From contig NC_090116.1 in NCBI RefSeq assembly GCF_023973825.1, forward strand, positions 558,001 to 622,000: DNA of 64,000 nucleotides, read 5' to 3'. The notes under the pieces were generated by a model. The model saw only the letters and a list, made by a program, of their open reading frames with translations, was not told the DNA's origin and ran no database searches. Every line of letters begins with the position of its first letter. The first letter of the stretch is position 1. Both the position numbers and the translations under genes were made by a program. Shown in pieces: positions 23,880-63,320 of the stretch. Source of the stretch: Plasmodium brasilianum (taxonomy: Eukaryota > Apicomplexa > Aconoidasida > Haemosporida > Plasmodiidae).

Positions 23880-25740
23880 ATGGTAAACATAAACTGGCCG
23901 GGGCTACTCAAGTGGTCTACGAAATATGCAGGTAATTTTTAATCATGTATATGGACATTTCTCTATTTTTGTGAATTAAATAAGAGCATAAATGTGTTGA
24001 ACAGTGAAAGTGAGATGCTGTCGTTTGTTGAGTAATTATGTTTACATGGTATCTACTCAATATATCTATGTAATATATCTACTCAATATATCTATGTAAT
24101 ATATCTACTCAATATATCTATGTAATATATCTACTCAATATATCTATGTAATATATCTACTCAATATATCTACGTAACGTATTCAATTCATACGTGTACG
24201 TACCGATGTTGTACTTACGTAGAATGATGAATATTCACGTGCTGACGAATGAACATATAGACGTGCTTCGATGTATGCTCCCTGAATAGACATACGCGTA
24301 CCTTTTTATTTTATTATATTTTATTTTATTTTTCCTAAAATTGCAGACGGTACGATAGATACAAACAAACGGTTAAGTAAGGAGGACATTGAATTTTTGC
24401 AAGGTGCAATAAAGGACGCATTAAGTCAAATAGAAGACCCATACGAAGCAATAAATGAAGCAGTTCGAAATTTTGAAAATAAAGATGAAGGTATAATATT
24501 AGCATCAGCTAAAATTGTAGAAAGATTAGTGGATGAATATCCTGAAGTAGCTAGAAATTTAGACAAAATTAAAGCAGTAGATCCATTATTAAAATTATTA
24601 GATAATAATAATAATCATATTTTAGAATCAGTATTACAAATATTTTCTTTAGCTTTATCAAATAATCCAGAATTACAAGATTCGGTATTTAAAAAAAATG
24701 CTTTAAAAAAATTATTAATAAAATTGCAGGAGTCGCAAAAAACAGTTATTGATAAAAAATTAATTACAGCTATTTCAGCTTTAATAAGACATCATGATGA
24801 AGCAGAAAATAAATTTATTGACTATGGAGGTATTGGTTTCTTAGTGTATGGTATGCAAACTAATATATACAAATATCAAGAAAAATCAGCACTTCTTTTA
24901 AAACATTTAATTCATCAAAATAAAATTACTTTTGAGTTATTTCTTAAAAATGAAATTATGAAAGGACTTATATGTTTAGCTAATAATAAAAATATTGATG
25001 AAACAGGTATACAATATGGGGAAACTACAGCAGAACTATTTTTAGCTTTAATGCAAAACCACAGACACAAATTAGCAAAAGCAGGTTACTTACATAATTT
25101 AAAAAAATTAATTGAAGATAGACTAGTATATCTGCGCGTTGTTCAAAACAGTGCCTCCTACGATGTGTCTCATGAGATTGAGTTATTTAATGACTGCCTT
25201 AAGTTAACGAAGTAAGTCCTCGACAAATGTCTCGCCTGTGGGCGAACTGCTGCACATTCTTGTAAACATACACACGTACATATATGTATGTATATGCATA
25301 TACATATATATACACATACATATATATACACATACATATATATACACATACATATATATACACATACATATATATACACATACATATATATACACATACA
25401 TATATATACACATACATATATATACACATACATATATATACACATACATATATATACACATACATATATATACACATACATATATATACACATACATATA
25501 TATACACATACATATATATACACATACATATATATACACATACATATATATGTATTTACGGAACTGTCGAAGTCAGCGTGCATTAACTGAGAAAGATCGA
25601 AGAGCTAGGGATATCTTGCACGAAAAAAATAAACATGCTTTTGTAATTATTTCATTTTTTCTTTTTTCTTATCTAGTTGGCCTGGAGTTAAGCCGCCAAA
25701 AAAAACTGACGAAAATAATTTTAGCATTGCTGATAGGTAA
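23880..25740 (+). CDS. FES1: Hsp70 nucleotide-exchange factor FES1/HspBP1 family, three exons, 326 aa
   Basis: Armadillo-repeat cochaperone that releases ADP from Hsp70. Exons 23880-23931, 24347-25211 and 25677-25740 join in phase (52+865+64 = 981 nt). Exon 1 gives [17 protein letters not shown], the Fes1 N-terminal amphipathic signature, and runs into [20 protein letters not shown]. The body ([56 protein letters not shown]) is the helical-repeat domain seen across HspBP1/Fes1. If exon 2 simply continued it would stop at 25215, but GTAAGT at 25212 and a strong T-rich acceptor at 25676 add exon 3 ([20 protein letters not shown] plus one residue). Exon 3's composition is clearly coding. Both introns are largely minisatellite. 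Probably cytosolic. Confidence 0.88.
24053..24182. repeat. 26-bp minisatellite in FES1 intron 1
   Basis: Five tandem copies with exact 26-bp period, each unit containing ctactcaatatatctatg. The last copy reads tctacgtaac. Confidence 0.92.
25302..25550. repeat. 16-bp minisatellite in FES1 intron 2
   Basis: About fifteen near-perfect copies of tacacatacatatata. All six frames are open through it (Tyr/Ile/His/Thr or Met/Cys/Val/Tyr strings), which produces several long spurious open frames. Confidence 0.95.
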
Positions 25741-25862
25741 CAGCAGCAGAAGAAGCAGTAGTAGCGGCAGTGTAAGAAGCGTAATAGCAGTGGAAGAAGC
25801 GTAATAGCAGTGGAAGAAGCGTAGTAGCAGTGGAAGAAGCGTAGTAGCAGTGGAAGACGTAA
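25741..25862. repeat. 20-bp repeat just after the FES1 stop codon
   Basis: About five copies of an agcagtggaagaagcgtagt-type unit lie in the presumed 3' UTR. They are much richer in G/C than the surroundings, so they may derive from or resemble coding Ser/Gly repeats. Confidence 0.75.
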
Positions 25863-51176: not shown

Positions 51177-54100
51177 TTAGAGGGGGGCCATCTGAAATCG
51201 AATGCTATAGACGAAATATTTTTTAATGCTTTCCTTTTGAATTACTTGTCTCAAAGAAAAATTTTCATTTTTTATTTCATGAAATAGAAAGAAAAAAAGT
51301 ATATTATTTTTTGTTTTAAAATTAGAAATATGGACGACTGGTAAACAATATTTATATATGTAAGGTATGCTACGATTTGTTAAAAATTTTGTGGCCTTAA
51401 TATTTTTTTTTTCATAATAAACGTAATCCTCTTTTTTTAAATAGCGAATATGTATGTGAAACTTCTCTTTCTTTTTTTTTTTTCTCTTTCGAATGAATAA
51501 GTAGGTATGTTTTTTTTTTTTTTTTTTTTTTTTTTTTGTATCTCTGCCTTTGCATTAATAATATCTTTTCTATATATACGGGTAATCGTTGCTGATATGT
51601 TATCATGAATATATATAATGGAACTTTTCTGTCTAATTTCATGTGGTACATTTTTTTTTTCCATGTTTCCCTCTACATCTTCCTTCTCTTTACTGGGAAT
51701 GTTAATAATCCGGAAAAAATTATTATTAACGAGAATTTTATTTCGGGCGTTTAGATCTATAGTTATGAATTTCTGCTTCATGTCATTCTTTCGATTCAAT
51801 TGCGTCTGCTGTGGAGTTGCGTATATCACAGTTTGCATATCCTCACTATTGCTCTTCTTTGCGAAATGCTCGTTTTGTTTTAACTTATATTCGTTATTCA
51901 TATTGACACCATCTTTACACATTTGAGCATGCCCATATAAATAATTCTGGCGTACAAATAAAAACAGCGTATTGTAAACCCGTTCAATGTGCCTATAACT
52001 AAAAGAGCCACTTGCATACTTTTTTACGATATTATATAGTATTTCCATTTGAATAAATTTTGAAGGTAAAAGTAAAAACTCAAGAAAGTTAAAAATTTTT
52101 AAATAAACATTATTTTGATACATGATTTTATTGATTGTAATTAAATCGTTTCTTGTTTTTTCTAAAAAGAAGGAGTCATACAAACTATTCTGCATTTTTG
52201 TATACTCATTAATAAAGATATTATCTCCAGTAGTACTTCTACTTACAGAATCGTAATATTTATTTTTTAGGTATGCATTAAATATGTTATTATGATAATG
52301 CACATGTTCTTCTAAATTCTTTGCTTGAGATACCAAATTTTTTATTCGCTTATCTAAAGAGGGGTACATGTACACATGGCACCCTCTCATTTCGGAATTT
52401 TTGTCAGATACATTTACGTTGTTATTCATGCTGCTCGAGCTATTCATGCTGCTCGAACTATTCATGCTGCTCGAGCTATTCATGCTGCTCGTGCAATTCA
52501 CGTTATTCACGTTATGATCTCCATTTATGTTCATTTTTTTTTTTTTTTCTCTTCACTATATCTTTGATCAGACGCAGATAATATCGTATCGTTGTTCATA
52601 TAAAGAGATGAAAAAGTAGGCGTACTACCATCAACGCTTGGTGAAAAGGTGTCTAATCTACTTTTCACACCCCCTTTATCCTTTAATACGAAAGATATGT
52701 TCGGTATTACAACATGTCTAAGAAAATTTCTTGAAATATGAATCTTTTCATTTGATCGATCGAACATCCAACTTTTATTTATAGATCTCATGTAGTTAAA
52801 AAGGCTTATTTTATTTAATTTAACAAAAGGTCTGTATAAGAAACAGTTTTTAAAATATGTTAGGTATGTTATACCCCTTATATTTTTAATAAATATTCCT
52901 CTAAAAAATTGAAACAACACAGTTTCATTGCTATCATTTTTATGATGACCTATAAATACTAGAGATTTAATTTTTTTCAAAACATTCCAAATAGTACTGT
53001 CTAAGGAATGAAAATTCTTCTCATTCATACTTTGGCTTCTTAACAATATGTTCATAATATTTTTCTTACAACTAATCCTTATGTATGTGTCTATAGCTGA
53101 CGTGTACTTTTTGTACGTATAGTTGTGCCTTATGCCCAATGTACAGGGGAGGGCATTCACCATTTGGAAAATCCTTCCCCTCACTCGGTCACCCACCACT
53201 TGACCAGCCATCCCTTCTACAGATTTAACCATCTCTTTTGCCACTTCTACCGCTTCATCATCCGAACCACTCTTCTCCTCTTTGCATATCTGCCTGGTTA
53301 GCTCCACATACGAATTCCTTCGCCAGGTCCTTGCTAACAGTAAAAAATTGTTCATATTTTTATTAACGCCCTGACTTTCATTTTTCTTCCTCATCTTCCT
53401 CAAACTACTACTTGTTAATATTTTCGTTCTAAATTTCAAATTGTAAATCTTGCAAATATTTTTTAAAAATTTCCTTTCTGTCTTGCATTCATCTCTTGTC
53501 TTATGATTGCAATAAAGAACAGTAATGTTTTTTAAAATGGAGGCAAAAAAATGAACATGCTCAGATTTATTTCTGTAAATTAATTTGCTAATATCTACAT
53601 GAGTGTAGGTATATGCACTGTTTATTCTGTTCATTAAAGATGTATAACTGTCGCTATCTTTGTGTGCATACGTTATTATAATTTTGTAAATAACAAAAAG
53701 GAAGGAATAAAGAAGACACAGTGAATCTACACCTGCACTTACACTGAATAGTAAATTTTTTTTATTTTTTAAAAATGAAAAAAAATATTTGTTCCTCAGT
53801 GTGCACAACCAGTAGGCTTCCACGAGTTGTATCTCTTCTTGGTTTTCTACGTTTATTCCCTGTATTAAGTCCTTGCGCGGGGTAGCAAACGCAGAACCGT
53901 CATCTGTGCTGCCAACATTGTCAACACTACCAACACTGCCAACATTGCCAACATTGCCAACACTGCCAACACTGCTAACACTGCTAATCCTTGGACTTAT
54001 CAAACTGCTGTAGTTTATTTTCAATTCCTCTAGCTCCTTCGTCTTTTCGTCATTTTCATCATTTATTAATGAGCAAATATTTTTCAGAAAAAGTTTTCTT

Positions 54101-54399
54101 CGTATATCCCTCCTTTCCCCCCTTTCACTATCATCATCGTCTTCCTTTCCTGTGCATTCATGTTTGGTTAACAGCGTTTTTCTTTTTCCCCTTTCATCTA
54201 TTTGTCCCAACACAATATCGTTAATCTGTTTCTCTATTTTTAAATTAACATTCTTATTAAGTCGTTTTCTTTTTATGCTATCAAAATGTACTCTTAAAAA
54301 GTTTAAGTCTATTTTTGGTGCATTTTTTAAATATATACATTTTGTTAAGTACTCATGACAAATAATATATAAGATGTATAAAAGTAAAACGAGATGCAT
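51177..54399 (-). CDS. TilS: tRNA(Ile)-lysidine synthase TilS, one gene with two apparent homopolymer frameshifts
   Basis: ATP-dependent enzyme that converts C34 of tRNA-Ile(CAU) to lysidine so that it reads AUA; in Plasmodium the substrate is the apicoplast tRNA. The frame runs 54399-52531, then continues in another frame from 52534, then in a third to the stop at 51177-51179 (about 1075 aa in all). Domains follow bacterial order. An N-terminal leader MHLVLLLYILYIICHEYL looks like a signal peptide. The PP-loop is LLFSVSAGVDSLCLLYSF (about 218), where SGGxDS has become SAGVDS. Then come YCNHKTRDECKTE, IGHHKNDSNETVLFQFFRG (about 483), and DRSNEKIHISRNFLRHVVIP. The second part has the linker helix (YPSLDKRIKNLVSQAKNLEE) and LPSKFIQMEILYNIVKKYAS. 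The third gives the C-terminal tRNA-binding motif NIKATKFLTNRSIPYIYKYC followed by LPVVHIS (bacterial kkl..e..iP...R...Pvv). Both breaks sit in poly(A) runs. Confidence 0.9.
51510..51537. other. 28-base homopolymer with apparent frameshift in TilS
   Basis: T28 on + (A28 in the gene). Upstream the frame reads INAKAEIQ then Lys codons. The TilS C-terminal domain frame (HTYLFIRKRKK..) is reached only if the run has 29 (or 26) bases. Confidence 0.8.
52534..52548. other. 15-base homopolymer with apparent frameshift in TilS
   Basis: T15 on +. The first TilS frame ends SDQRYSEEKKKKK with TGA overlapping the ATG of the following frame. One extra A would fuse the two frames without loss. Confidence 0.78.
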
Positions 54400-54962
54400 T
54401 AATTATTTCATAATAACATTTTGCATCTTTTTTTCTCTTTCTTTTGTAGTCGATATTGCTACATAATATCCTCATAGCCTTCCACGTTTTTCATTATCAG
54501 AGAAACAAATGGAAGGAGTATTTTTTGCTTAAAGGATTTACAAAAAGGTAAAAAAAAAAAAAAAAAAAATCACTACTAAATTAATACATCAATAAATTTA
54601 TACACTAATGTGTTAATACGCTGATATATTAATACGCTGATATTTAATACACTAATATATTAATACGCTGATATTTAATACACTAATATATTAATACGCC
54701 GATATATTAATACGCCGATATATTAATACGCTGATATTTAATACACTAATATATTAATACACTAATAAATTAATACATTATTAAAAGGACACAAATGCAC
54801 AAATTACTCGGCTCAAAATAAACCTAAATATGCACAAAGTGTTGAATGTTCTACGTATTTCGGCTTGGGCTTTCCCTCAACTGAATTGAAGTTTTAGAGA
54901 GAAGGCTACTTATACTCTTTGCCAAGAATACATACATATATGCATACAGCATACCTACAGCG

Positions 54963-55239: not shown

Positions 55240-55695
55240 ACAAATTTGTACAGGATATATATTGTGCCATATTGTACATGTAAATAGTATACCGTTCGTA
55301 CTGTATTACGTTACAAGCGTATGAACATACATACGCATATATACATATATGTTGGTGCATATGTAACTCCTTTGCTGACCCCTTTTTGAATATGAAACAA
55401 GTTCGTACTCCCGTAAAAAGCAAAAGTTTAAGTTTCTTTTCTCGGGGGAAAAATGCAAAATTACAAATTATGCTTAACCAGCGGATGAAGAATAAAAAAA
55501 GCCTATAACGAAGAGATTTTTTTATTTTTTATTTTTTTTTTTTTTTTTGGGGGGAGGAGTATGTGTTTGGGTTAACCCCAAAGAGGAAGGTATTTCTACA
55601 AAAGAAATGTACATGTGTACTGTAAATACCTCACTGTTACAACAAGCCTAGTTAATTACATTAGTATAGAAGGGTGAACAGGTGAAAGTGCGAAA
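54400..55695. other. head-to-head spacer between TilS and the TBP-like gene
   Basis: Contains a degenerate array of ttaatacgctgatat / acactaatatat units at about 54595-54785, (TA)n at 54965-54998, and T runs at 55203-55237 and 55535-55548. It holds promoters for both genes. No coding exon seen. Confidence 0.55.
54595..54785. repeat. degenerate minisatellite of taatacgctgatat units
   Basis: About twelve alternating 12-15 base units (atattaatacgctgat, atttaatacactaat) with point variation. Confidence 0.75.
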
Positions 55696-58199
55696 ATGCA
55701 GCACGGATGGAATAATAAAAGGGATAAAAGAGGCGAACTGTTTTTCGACCAGAACAGCGGTAACAGTTTTATTCATTGTGACATGATAAAATGTATGCAC
55801 GAAAAAGGAAAGGAAAAATTAAAGAAATTTTTAAAAGCTAATGATAATTTAATATACGATGATGTGTTTCATTTGAATATATACATAAAGAACATATGGG
55901 TTTCAATGAACCTAAGATGTAAATTTTCCATATATGATTTAATTTTAATCGCAAGGTCTTTTAAAAATACCGAAATAATATATGATGATACAGGTTTTAA
56001 TGCAAATATTGAAGAGTCTTTTTTTAAAGGGGATGGTGAAGATGAAGGTGAAAATGAAGATGAAGATAAAAATGATGTAGAAAAAAAAAAAAAAAGAAAA
56101 AAAAAAAAAATTTATTTTTCATTTATTTTCATAATTATAAAATTCGAAAAAATGTGGTAAAAATATTTTTTCAAAATCCATATGTTGTTTGTTTTATTCA
56201 TAAAAATGGGTCGATACATATACATGGTGCACTTACATTGAGGAAAATGTTATTAATATTAATAAAAGTAGTTAAAAAATTGAAATATAAAACATTCTGG
56301 ATGTATTTAAATGGTAAGATTAACCGTACCCATATTGACAATTCTTATCCTAGATTTGGTGAAGATCTACATAGGAGGGTGGACTCTAGACGAAATGACT
56401 CCCCTATCTGTTATGATTTTACACCTGTCTTAAATGATGAATGTTTAAGAGATGAACATGCACATGGTCAGGTAAATATCGCCTGCAATGTATTGCCCAT
56501 CGCTAAAAACGCGAATGCTGAATTAAGGTATTTTCGAGATTGTGGTCAAGGATGTAGTGAGCACATATTGGGAGAAAAGGCAAATTTGGAAAAGAGGGAT
56601 GATGCGGGAGAAAAAGAAGTGGAAGAAATGGAAGAAGTGGAAGAAATGGAAGAAATGGAAGACGTGGAAGAAGTGGAAGACATGGAAGAGCAGGGAGAAA
56701 ACACCCCAATGATCAGCAATTTCACGGATGATGATTCACAGCTGAGCGCTGGTTTGAGTACGGACGACCTAAGAGCAATTAATTCGTCTGTAACAAACAG
56801 CATGAACGCGAAAGAAGCAATTATTTTTTGCGAAAATGTTATTGAAGAAGTTAAGTCGAAATTAAAAAATTATGAGAGCGAATTTTGCGTGAAAGGACCA
56901 CCACCACGAAAAGAAGAAAATGAGGTGGAAGAAAAAGACGATGAAGACGAAGAAAAAAGCATAAAATTGTTGAAGGATAATAATAATCGCACAAACACAA
57001 ATACATGCAATATTTTTGGTGTTGTTATAAGAACTGATGAAAATGATGAAAACGTTGAAAACGATGAAAATGATGAAAATGATGAAAACGATGAAAATGA
57101 TGAAAATGATGAAAATGATGAAAATGATGAAAATTGTAAAAATGGTAAAAATGGTAAAAGTGGTAAATATGGTAAAAATGGTAAATATGGTAAAAATGGT
57201 AAAAATGGTAAAAATGGTAAAAATGGTAAAAATTATAAAATTATCAAAAATTGCAAAAATTGCAAAAATATGAACAGTGCAGGAATTGCAAAAAATGCCA
57301 AAAAAAGCCCCAATAAAAAATTTCCGTTAAAATTTTTAAAAAAGTACGACGAGCCGTTAAATAAAGACTCAAATCGGAACGATCTGTTCTCATATTCAAG
57401 TGAAAATGAACGATTAAATTATTACAATTATGGTATGTGCGTCAGTCCTAACAATCTTGACAATCTTAACAATGCTTTTTCAAATGAGATAAGCCAAAAA
57501 AAAAAAGACGTAAAAAGCTGTAAAGATACCCCATCAAATGAGTCTAATTTTCATCAAAATTGTGAGCATAATATCGATGACATAATAATAACCCCATCTA
57601 ATAGCACAAATTATATATCAAAACATTCAAAAAAAAAGAATATACATGTATATGATAAAAATGTATACTCCATGAAAGTACAAAAAATAAATTTGAGTGA
57701 GGAGAGTCCCTCTCGCGCAAAACAGTTATTTTTTCAAAATAATAATAAAAAGGTGTTTAACAAAAAGCATATATATAAATTTGACACCTATCATAAATGG
57801 AAATATATTATTCGAGATGATATCATTTTTGATATGAATTATTTTTATATTAAACAATTTGTGTGTGTATTTAAAATTAAATTAAAATATTTTGATATAA
57901 TGAAATTTTATAAATATAACGAATTTAAAAATATACTAACTGATATTAATAACATTATATATATAAAAATAGATCAAAATCTTATAAATAAATTAATTGA
58001 ACAAGCCAATTTAGAAAACTTGGTTAAAAATAATTCCATTTATAATTACAAAGGAAATAACCAAAATTCTGTTAGGACTGTTTTATTGTTTAGTTCGGGG
58101 AATGTTGTTATTTATGCCTGTAAGAACAGGCGCGAAGTTTTGTGTGTGTCCAGGTTTATTATTAACACACTTAGGAGAAACAATAACTTAGTGATGTGA
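55696..58199 (+). CDS. TATA-binding-protein-like (TBP-fold) protein, about 830 aa, one homopolymer frameshift
   Basis: Two open frames (55696-56160, then a frame open from upstream of 56154 to 58199) together carry a TBP saddle. First half-repeat: HLNIYIKNIWVSMNLRCKFS followed by IYDLILIARSFKNTEI corresponds to TBP ..lqNiv..vnL.ckldl..ia..arn.ey. After an Asp/Glu/Lys insertion and the frame change, VVKIFFQNPYVVCFIHKNGS and IHIHGALTLRKMLLILIKVV correspond to ..r...p..t.liF.sGk.v.tGa.s...s..a..k. Then an insertion of roughly 430 residues (acidic and Asn repeats, NDEN and KNGK units). Second half: DMNYFYIKQFVCVFKIKLKY .. VRTVLLFSSGNVVIYACKNR. The family call rests on both half-repeats. It is far from canonical TBP in sequence and so is a TBP-like factor, not the general TBP. 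Probably nuclear. The first frame ends at TAA at 56158-56160. Confidence 0.72.
56081..56110. other. A15-G-A14 tract with apparent frameshift in the TBP-like gene
   Basis: The first frame runs through this tract into IYFSFIFIIIKFEKMW and a stop. One additional A in either run would lead directly into NLFFIYFHNYKIRKNVVKIF, the continuation of the first TBP half-repeat. Confidence 0.75.
57030..57255. repeat. coding repeats NDE and KNG in the TBP-like gene
   Basis: About eleven 9-bp gatgaaaat units (DEN) run directly into about twelve 9-bp aatggtaaa units (NGK), giving an abrupt acidic-to-basic switch in the insertion. Confidence 0.88.
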
Positions 58200-59374: not shown

Positions 59375-62300
59375 TTATAATAAATATTTCTGAATTGGAA
59401 AATATAAAGGACATTTTTTTATAAATGTTTTTTTGCATTTTTCTCCCTTTGTATATTCGTCCATCATTCTTGAATTTTCTTCTAAAATAGTTCGATTTAC
59501 TCGAGTATGCCCCAAAGAAATGCCGCTTCCATTGTAGGATTCGGTAGACGTGGACTCCTTTCCATTATATATTACGTTATTTGACGAATTGCTCATTGAT
59601 CTGCTCATTGAACTTCTCGTAGAACTTCCTCCCGCATAACATTTGTGGTTTAATTCGTTAATTCTGGACTTGTACCCTTTGTAAGACGGCAGTGCAGACA
59701 TTAACACACTCTTGGATTTTGCATGAAATTTTATGTACACGTCAGGCGCATTCAGAACTTGAAGTCTCGCAGCCATGGATTTTGTTATATAAAAATTTTC
59801 AAAATAGCCAAAAGAATAAATGATATTTTTAATTAAACTTGGTACTTGCCATTTTTCAAATTTAAAATTTTCGTTTTTTTCACAATAAAAACCTAGTAAT
59901 GATCTGTACATCAATTCACATGAACATAATAAATGATTATGTTTATGCCATTCAACATGTCTTATCTGAGAATTATAAAAAAAATTGAACGTTTCCCCTT
60001 TGTCTATATTATCACCATAATTTTGTAGTTCTTCATTACATAATTTAATTTGTTCCCCCTCCAAATTGTAATCATAATTATTGTCTTCTTTCTTAACCTT
60101 TATTAAATTATTTGTTATATAATTGCTCTTTTGTAAGCTATTCTCACTCACATTTTTATTGCGTCTTTTATACTTCAACAAAGTATATAACAAATTGTTC
60201 TCCTTATATATATAATTTAAATAATTCTTACTTATGCTACTAATAATAATATTATTTTTATACAAAATAAATAAATAATGTCCCTCTAATTCGTTTAATA
60301 ATAATAAGCTTCTTCCTTGCATAGCTTTTGTTGTAGCAATGTTTGTCCTTAAAATATATTCATCAATACTTGCACACACACCTATCTGTATTACTAAGTC
60401 TACATTATCTATTTCAATTCCTTGGCATACCATAGAGGTAGAAAATAAAATTTTTTTTTTTTTTTTCTGAATTGTTAAAATTATTCAATGTATATATTTT
60501 TTTATCCAAGCTCAATTTGCTGTGTAGGCAGGAAATTAACATATCTTTCAATTGTTCATATTCTTTTTGATATATTGTATTGTTTTCTCCTCCTTTTTCA
60601 TAACAAAATTCTTCTTCATCCTGAAGTTTATATTCATTTTGTTCATTTAAACAGTCCGATTGAATTTCACTTTGTTCACTGCTTTTGCTACAATTAGCAT
60701 AAATCTCCTCGCTAAAGTAACAAAATGCATCTTTTCCTTTACCTAAATCGTTTACTTCCTTTTTGGAATTTTCGATTGACGAATTAGGTAAGACATGATC
60801 AATGGAAACAAAAGGATCAGAAGAAACAGAAAAATTTACATTTTCCTTATCATAATAATGGGATATAAAAAATAAATTTTTTTTTTTTAACGAATTATTC
60901 AATTTTAAATAAAGTAAAAATATGTACCCCTTAAATATATAATGCTTAAAAATGACATAAAAAAATTGTACCATTTTAACTGTTGGCATAAAAATAACAA
61001 TATTTATATTATCATTTGATAAAAGCTCTTTACAAATTATATTGAATAATATTAAAGCAAGTTTGTCCGATTCGTATATTAAATATTCTTGTTTTAAAAA
61101 TATGTGCGTAGGTATATTTTTCCCTTTATTTTCTTCATATTTCACACAGTTCTTACTATAAACTGTGTAATTATTATAATCACTATTATTTAATTTTAAT
61201 TTTTTTATTTTTTCATCATTTTGAGTACCTCTATATATGAATTCTTCCGTAATCTCTTCCGTAATCTCTTCCGTCCGTCTTTTTATTTTTCTTTTAGTAT
61301 TTATTTTACTGTTATTTTCATCCATCAGTTCGTTTCTTTTATCGCACAAGTTTAAATTATTTTTCTCATTTACACTGTGTTCGGTGTTACTGTTTTTTCC
61401 CTTTCCATCAGGTGCGTCATTCCCTAAATGCTCTTTGATTTGTTCACCTTGCCCAATATCAACCTTGGTACTACAGCTGCTGTTACTGATGTTGCCGCTA
61501 CGGCTGCTATTGATGCTAATGCTCTTATTACCGCTTTTGTGCCCCGCCAAAAAATCATTTTGAAAGTCCAGTTGCTTATCAGATGAACTGCCTACAGAGC
61601 TGTTCACTATATACGAGTTAAACGCGTTGACGTTTTGATAAAATGTCGTAGCGTCTTTGCAATGCCAGAGTTTTCCCAAATCGTCGCAGTTCAATATGTT
61701 ATGTCTATACATAGTTATCAACTTAGCATTAAGCTCGTGGTGCAACTGGAAAAGGCGGCTGTTTTTATTTTTACTAATATAATTAATGTAGTTTAATTTT
61801 TCATTTGAATTAAAATTGATTATGTTCATGAGAGCAGCTGCATGAAAAATATTGCTGTCATAAATACAATTGTCAACAAAATTTAAATGCACATAATTTA
61901 ATCGTAAAAATCTATATGCTAAATGCTTTAAAAAATTATTAACAAGACATGTTAATAAAATTGTCTGATGTCCTTTAGGTAAAACGTTTTTTATAATTAA
62001 AATATTTTTAAGATAGTTTGGATTTAAAAGAAAATAAGCTTCATCAATAATTAATGTATCACATAAAAAAAACATTCTTGAAAAATTTGTTGAAAACTTG
62101 ATATGATTTATAAAAGATACAGGTGTTGTTACAATTACATGTGGCTTTTTTTTTTTTAATTCATTAATTTCGTCTTGCATGTTCATATATTTTCTTCCAT
62201 GTATATAATGACATATGATATTACATGGATGGTACATAATTAATTTTTTAATAATTGCATAAGTTTGTTCAACTAAAATTATATTTGGACAAACAACAAG

Positions 62301-63320
62301 CGCAAGAACATAATTTTCTTTTATTATTGTACAATTTCTTTTCAAATTATTTATTTGGACTATTATTTTATGTAAAAGTGGTATACAATAAGCTAGCGTT
62401 TTTCCAGTACCTTTAAATGAATGAACTAGGACATCAAAATTCTTTAAAAAAAATGGGAATAAACAATATTGAACAGTAGTAACATATTTCATGCGAAAAT
62501 TTTTTTCTAGACTTAACTTAATAAATGAATCAATGTTCATATGGTTTACCTCATTATAATGCAAAACTGCTTTATCGTAATGTGTACTACATTTATCTGT
62601 AGTGGTGCATAATGCGTCTGGCGCGTATTTATCATAGTTGTTGTGAATGAAAATTCCTTTTTGAACAGCTTCCCTATTACAATATATGTGCGTTTTTTCC
62701 TCTTTTTTATCATAAATTATTAATTTTCTATTTTTAATGATGAATGTGTTATCTTCAGATGAACAAAAAAAAAAATTATTACCTATTATCTGTTCCGCTT
62801 TCATTTCATTATTTCCTATACTATCATTCATTTTTTTTAACGCTTCAATTTTATCTAAGCAATTATTATAATTACTTTGAAAAGAATAGTGTGCGAGGAA
62901 GAAGTCATAAAAATAGTATGGCACGTATTCCCTGTTCGATGACGTTAGTATATGTACATCCGCTTTGAGTTTTTTCAATTTTGTTAAGCATAATGCATTT
63001 AAATCGTTCATATTGTCATATATTATTTTTTTTCCCCCATTAACAAACTCTGCTAAATAGTTTTCCTCGGCTTCGCTCTTCGACTCTTTCTCCTTGACAT
63101 TGTTCGTGATAGGGGTAGTAGTGCCTGCCGCAGCGGTTATAGCAGCGGTGATAGAACCAGACATCGGAGTACCTACAGTAACCGCAGTAGCAGCCACATC
63201 AGTAGCAACAGTCCTAAAAAAACAGCTGCTCCTACCACTTTCTACGCTCAGTGAAATTTTAACATTTTGGAAAATTCGACAAAGTTTTACTAAATTTTTT
63301 ACATTTTCCACTGACACCAT
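59375..63320 (-). CDS. divergent DEAD-box RNA helicase, about 1310 aa, one homopolymer frameshift
   Basis: Two open frames (63320-60414 and 60433-59375) form one protein. RecA domain 1 (first frame): Q-motif region MKYVTTVQYCLFPFFLKNFD, motif I VHSFKGTGKTLAY (about 300), motif Ia VVCPNIILVEQTY, VTTPVSFI for TPGR, motif II IIDEAYFLL (about 423; DEAY, not DEAD), and LLTCLVN where SAT is expected. RecA domain 2 spans the break: NIVIFMPTVKMVQFFYVIFK, then ILFSTSMVCQGIEIDNVDLV in the second frame (normal TDvaaRGiD). Motif VI is degenerate: YILRTNIATTKAMQGRSLLL replaces HRiGRtgR. Nucleotide binding looks possible, but helicase activity is doubtful. Large Asn/Ser insertions lie between the domains. 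The N-terminus contains a basic/aliphatic stretch that might target an organelle, but this is uncertain. Confidence 0.85.
60451..60466. other. 16-base homopolymer with apparent frameshift in the helicase gene
   Basis: T16 on +. The first frame reads NNSE, Lys codons, NFIFYLYGMPRN and a stop. The second frame over the same bases reads ILFSTSMVCQGIEID, helicase motif V. A run of 15 (or 18) would connect them. Confidence 0.8.

Follow-up and report, generated by a model that had tools for sequence, protein, structure and literature searches.

A probable third TBP-family protein of Plasmodium with widely separated half-repeats and a rebuilt concave face

Analysis of a 64,000-nt window of the Plasmodium brasilianum genome (assembly GCF_023973825.1, NC_090116.1, positions 558,001-622,000, forward strand) revealed, at positions 55696-58199 (+) of this window, a gene whose product is very probably homologous to the TATA-binding protein (TBP). 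We propose, with a probability of about 0.6, that it encodes a third TBP-family protein of Plasmodium, which is specific to this genus, is descended from a complete, two-half TBP, would not grip TATA in the canonical way and would serve as a nuclear scaffold for an alternative initiation complex. For the transcription role taken by itself, we see even odds.

The gene consists of two overlapping open reading frames (ORFs) located in different frames (55678-56160 and 56076-58199). The frame changes inside a charged stretch, within an A-rich run (56081-56110) pointed out in an earlier note on this DNA. The peptides quoted in that note as parts of a TBP saddle are present in the region and on the strand indicated there: NIWVSMNLRCKFSIYDLILI in the first ORF, and VVCFIHKNGSIHIHGALTLR and VRTVLLFSSGNVVIYACKNR in the second. 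The parts of the gene are as follows:

55696-56160 (+): first ORF, from ATG to stop (154 aa), with the conserved N-terminal segment and the first part of the TBP N-half; the best N-half profile match among the 282 ORFs of the window
55741-55872 (+): conserved N-terminal segment preceding the saddle (FFDQNS...IYDDVFH), with a counterpart kept in 18 aligned orthologues
55873-56004 (+): first part of the N-half (LNIYIKNIWVSMNLRCKFSIYDLILIARSFKNTEIIYDD), with Trp where yeast TBP has Val71
56029-56108 (+): insertion in the stirrup region of the N-half, acidic and then lysine-rich, containing the frame break in the A-run
56076-58199 (+): second ORF, with the remainder of the N-half, the long insert and the C-half; the Pfam TBP match lies on 56109-58196
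56109-56303 (+): remaining part of the N-half (FIYFHNYKIRKNVVKIFFQNPYVVCFIHKNGSIHIHG...KYKTFW), matching positions 40-82 of the TBP N-half profile
56199-56225 (+): HKNGSIHIH, whose three His (codons 56199, 56217 and 56223) stand where yeast TBP has Phe116, Val122 and Thr124
56307-57827 (+): 507-residue insert separating the two halves, with repeats of the acidic EVEEME-like, DEN and NGK types
56817-56873 (+): conserved island within the insert (AIIFCENVIEEVKSKLKNY), with Cys-Glu invariant in 21 orthologues; a helix in a low-confidence model
57762-57827 (+): conserved segment directly before the C-half (KKHIYKFDTYHKWKYIIRDDII)
57828-58196 (+): TBP C-half, interrupted ahead of the last strand pair by 35 inserted residues that form a helix and loop; equivalents of Phe207 and Leu205 kept

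The relation to TBP was detected with several kinds of sequence profiles, the two ORFs being searched as separate pieces. The Pfam TBP model (PF00352) matched the second ORF with an E-value of 4.4e-5 (23.7 bits, against a cut-off of 22.9) and one orthologue (P0001) with 24.8 bits. With a threshold of E <= 10, TBP was the sole family that every one of the 21 orthologues matched (best E 1.9e-5), not each of these matches being shown above the cut-off. The NCBIfam TBP models gave E-values of 0.0016 for the window ORF, 0.079 for P0001 and 0.031 for P0006, all far under the cut-off, and left the P. falciparum row P0017 unmatched.

We also prepared profiles of the two TBP half-repeats from an alignment of 120 TBPs, with a wider set that adds archaeal TBPs, and used the wider profiles to rank the 282 ORFs of at least 60 aa in the window. 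The N-half profile placed the first ORF at the top (positions 3-40, 8.8 bits, E 0.02), followed by the second ORF, which continues the match at positions 40-82 (5.2 bits, E 0.26), so that the N-half pieces are collinear across the frame break; the best of the other ORFs reached 0.8 bits. The same profile also cross-matched the C-half of the second ORF (7.9 bits). With the C-half profile, the second ORF was again ranked first (positions 9-86, 16.3 bits, E 9.4e-5), and the next ORF scored 4.7 bits.

In profile-profile comparisons (hhalign), the C-half matched the TBP C-half with a probability of 93.6% over 33 columns, exceeding all 100 column shuffles (maximum 4.8%). The TBP rows covering less than 40% of a half had been dropped from these profiles, and the alignments behind them and behind the structure models did not include the P. 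falciparum rows P0014-P0016. As support, the earlier note had asked for high-probability matches of both halves to the TBP fold; this was borne out for the C-half, whereas the N-half gave 49.9% over 82 columns against the TBP N-half, a modest score, though one above all of its 100 shuffles (maximum 9.1%). The N-half did not match the TBP C-half (0.6%).

The relation of the C-half to the TBP C-half can, on these profiles, be regarded as firm, and that of the N-half to the TBP N-half, aided by the collinearity of its pieces, as probable. Three results weigh against the descent from a complete TBP that we propose: the modest score of the N-half itself, its fall to 9.8% when a eukaryote-only TBP set was used (the best of 40 shuffles reaching 7.0%), and the outcome of AF2 modelling of a whole orthologue, which yielded no reliable structure for the N-half or for the full saddle. 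The weakness of the N-half on its own would also suit the view that an AT-rich protein of biased composition merely resembles TBP by chance. We consider this very improbable indeed, since neither the 100 column shuffles per half nor the remaining ORFs among the 282 reproduce the match, and TBP was matched by 21 of the 21 orthologues.

Several other matches were discarded. A search of the Protein Data Bank (PDB) with the sequences of both window ORFs returned no TBP, and only weak unrelated or low-complexity rows. The profile of the protein family matched an archaeal TBP in the same database (E 0.049); its match to huntingtin came via the low-complexity insert and was rejected. The Pfam DnaA, ETRAMP, collagen and VCX rows and the NCBIfam collagen-like adhesin rows were likewise dismissed as weak or repeat-driven. 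The AF2 model of the whole orthologue and the Foldseek search made with it were uninformative and were set aside as evidence.

A model of the C-half, built without TBP sequences and of modest confidence, retrieved TBP in the top 33 rows of a VIA-align search. The arrangement of the C-half is, according to Foldseek and VIA-align, common to the TBP-like folds of CENP-N and RdgC, and the protein might be a TBP-fold descendant working outside transcription, at centromeres or in recombination, where it would bind DNA or nucleosomes and have a TBP-like half domain of the CENP-N/CENP-L or RdgC type. This is clearly improbable. The VIA-align Z values of CENP-N and RdgC were lower than those of TBP in rows 1-33, and no sequence match to them was seen.

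Orthologues were identified in a region search with the last 132 residues as a single sequence (E <= 0.01, 199 candidates). It matched 21 proteins from 18 named taxa, all of them Plasmodium; among these taxa are P. falciparum, P. vivax, P. knowlesi and P. berghei, as well as P. gallinaceum and P. relictum, which infect birds. A profile search for relatives to E <= 1, in which the 7999 candidates sharing most words were scored, recovered the same 21 Plasmodium proteins and no others. No relatives outside Plasmodium were seen in these searches; as matches must have 5-residue words in common with the query and fall within a length window, distant or much longer orthologues of Toxoplasma or piroplasms could escape them. 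The suggestion of the earlier note that the protein may be a parasite-specific TBP paralogue agrees with a family seen only in Plasmodium and distinct from both TBP and the other TBP-like gene of this genome.

The halves are far better conserved than the sequence between them: five orthologues are 66-80% identical to a P. falciparum row over the N-half and 56-70% over the C-half, against 19-30% over the insert. The insert is of low complexity, and its length, estimated previously at about 430 residues, is 507 residues by the boundaries used here and 197-463 residues in the 21 orthologues. The first half is itself interrupted by a charged insertion (56029-56108), as had been noticed earlier; 27-34 residues separate the flanking motifs in the 21 orthologues. 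The insertion inside the C-half is 35 residues long in the window and in 20 of the 21 orthologues, and 36 in the remaining one. The island with the invariant Cys-Glu (56817-56873) lies in otherwise variable surroundings and is possibly a binding motif.

We next consider the concave face, defined by the residues of yeast TBP that contact DNA and placed on the Plasmodium proteins through shared motifs; 12 positions were compared, Phe99 and Phe190 being omitted as they have no aligned place. The places of Val71, Leu114, Phe116, Val122, Thr124, Asn159 and Thr215 are occupied in 21 of 21 orthologues by Trp, Phe, His, His, His, Gln and Tyr, respectively, and the equivalents of Val161, Leu205 and Phe207 are kept in all of them. 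Only the Asn69 (15/21) and Val213 (13/21) places vary. Invariance thus extends to 10 of the 12 face positions, compared with 101 of the 241 positions in the core (hypergeometric P 0.0035, which is indicative only, the sequences being related). The motif FIHKNGSxHxHG is present in all 21 orthologues and in none of the 120 TBPs. The stirrup motif YNPxx[FIVLYM] was found in 0/21 orthologues vs 117/120 TBPs, and EP[EDQ][LQYS]F in 0/21 vs 95/120. The earlier statement that this is not a canonical TBP is well founded in view of the split halves, the rebuilt face and the missing stirrup motifs.

As the face is conserved and yet chemically rebuilt, these alignments argue that the ligand is not TATA DNA, or that DNA is gripped differently. 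In the mechanism that we propose, the two halves would fold back together over the looped-out insert to form one saddle. This saddle would no longer clamp TATA DNA in the usual manner, because Trp, Phe and three His now make up the N-half face and neither stirrup motif is left. The protein may then be a nuclear TBP-like scaffold whose conserved new face holds a different ligand, be it a protein partner, RNA or non-TATA DNA, and which would act as part of an alternative parasite initiation complex.

The partly retained face of the C-half, seen in 21 of 21 orthologues, would equally suit a TBP-like factor which still binds promoter DNA through the equivalents of Phe207, Leu205 and Val161 together with a changed N-half, with an altered sequence preference and for one RNA polymerase or life stage. 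Such use by stage has a precedent in the TBP-like protein PF14_0267, described beside TBP and reported as preferentially expressed in gametocytes in the accessible part of PMC2821373, and the canonical TBP of this genome also deviates from the consensus, its YNPSK being followed by Ile at the position of yeast Phe99. This alternative is nevertheless unlikely, given the His at the Phe116 place of the N-half and the lack of the stirrup motifs in 21 of 21 orthologues. A bolder form of the scaffold proposal, which we regard as a long shot, is that of a third TBP class, in which the invariant face of three His, Trp and Phe would grip a non-TATA ligand (metal-dependent, RNA or protein) and the protein would fill the place of TBP in an alternative complex such as TAF1/BDP5.

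The basal transcription machinery of Plasmodium is unusual. The portion of PMC7145593 (2019) available to us names two TBP homologues, the P. falciparum TBP being PF3D7_0506200, and gives no evidence for an interaction of either with the TAF1/BDP5 complex. If our proposal is true, a third TBP-family protein, present in 18 named taxa besides that of the window, would be a direct candidate for this missing piece.

The genes adjoining the TBP-like gene are the following:

52531-54402 (-): divergent neighbour, PP-loop protein (Pfam PF01171, E 5.9e-22)
59375-63320 (-): convergent neighbour, DEAD-box helicase, in two frames that join at an A-run

The two ORFs in different frames raise the question of whether the window copy is a pseudogene, with a real frame break and a gene that has decayed in this species. 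In accordance with this, P. malariae or P. brasilianum is named for none of the 21 orthologues found, and yet the same database holds the P. brasilianum TBP. Decay is, however, distinctly unlikely: the break sits in an A-run, both ORFs are open apart from it and similar to the orthologues, and the adjoining helicase is split likewise, into pieces (59375-60484 and 60414-63320, -) whose two frames overlap and join at an A-run. Since such breaks recur in this assembly, that of the TBP-like gene is probably a homopolymer assembly error. Elsewhere in the window, two long ORFs (24286-25215 and 25208-25804, +) share 8 bases and are read in different frames, which could reflect a frame break, an intron or two genes.

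Judged by its family, the PP-loop neighbour probably corresponds to PF3D7_0411200, the lysidine synthetase of P. falciparum, which carries a PP-loop annotation and is described in PMC12069591 (consulted in part), and PF3D7_0411400 is among the RNA helicases in the accessible text of PMC4630921. Assuming synteny, the neighbours indicate that the P. falciparum orthologue of the TBP-like gene would be PF3D7_0411300.

The gene had been called possibly undescribed. Its orthologues are in fact annotated, under the names "conserved Plasmodium protein, unknown function", "hypothetical" or "uncharacterized", and a precomputed TBP domain is recorded for 1 of the 21; the relationship to TBP was not found in print in open-access full texts. 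Neither PF3D7_0411300 nor PFD0560w, presumably its older name, occurs in these full texts (supplements not covered). In the parts available, a domain-discovery paper names other TFIID domains and not this one, and two papers dealing with polymerase occupancy and the GCN5 complex do not mention it.

The P. brasilianum assembly (31.4 Mb, 43 contigs) also contains, as the earlier note had asked, separate TBP and TBP-like genes. A genome-wide Pfam search (E <= 0.001) located the canonical TBP at C6:290767-291294 and a second, TBP-like gene at C13:1296403-1296513 (E 3.4e-13); it did not list the gene at 55696-58199, which is the third of the family, and a search that missed it could miss more. The canonical P. 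brasilianum TBP reads YNPSKI where yeast has YNPKRF, with Ile at the place of Phe99, which is presumably one of the intercalating Phe residues. We take PFE0305w and PF3D7_0506200 to be the same P. falciparum gene, and PF14_0267 to be PF3D7_1428800; in one paper, as far as its text is available, TBP (PFE0305w) is listed alone. The gene on C13 is probably the counterpart of PF14_0267. It keeps YNPREF and the IFSNGKIICTG hairpin and has an insertion of approximately 125 residues inside the N-half; its open frame stops before the C-half is complete, where an intron may lie.

Like canonical TBP (PF00352), the Plasmodium protein has two half-repeats in the same order, each nearest to its own counterpart, and both share the strand-turn-strand FxSG[KN]xV of the C-half. 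In canonical TBP, however, the halves are contiguous in a compact core of about 180 residues, whereas 197-507 residues separate them in the Plasmodium protein, which has His, His, His and Trp in place of Phe116, Val122, Thr124 and Val71 and lacks both the YNP-type and the EPxxF-type stirrup motifs. Relatives of the Plasmodium protein were found only in this genus. A divergent second TBP, the best segment of which is 28% identical to the query, was observed in the Halobacteriales archaeon YIM A00010 (301-792), which has an ordinary TBP as well. Proteins of the PF14_0267 type, for which the C13 gene serves as a stand-in, are likewise TBP-family paralogues with a charged insertion, but this lies within the N-half, and they have the YNPxxF motif and the IFSNGK hairpin; the third protein is devoid of these and carries its insert between the halves. 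The metazoan TLP/TRF2 and the kinetoplastid TRF4 are compact TBP paralogues said to have lost parts of the TATA-contact face. To our knowledge, few TBP relatives would have a face as strongly remodelled as that of the Plasmodium protein.
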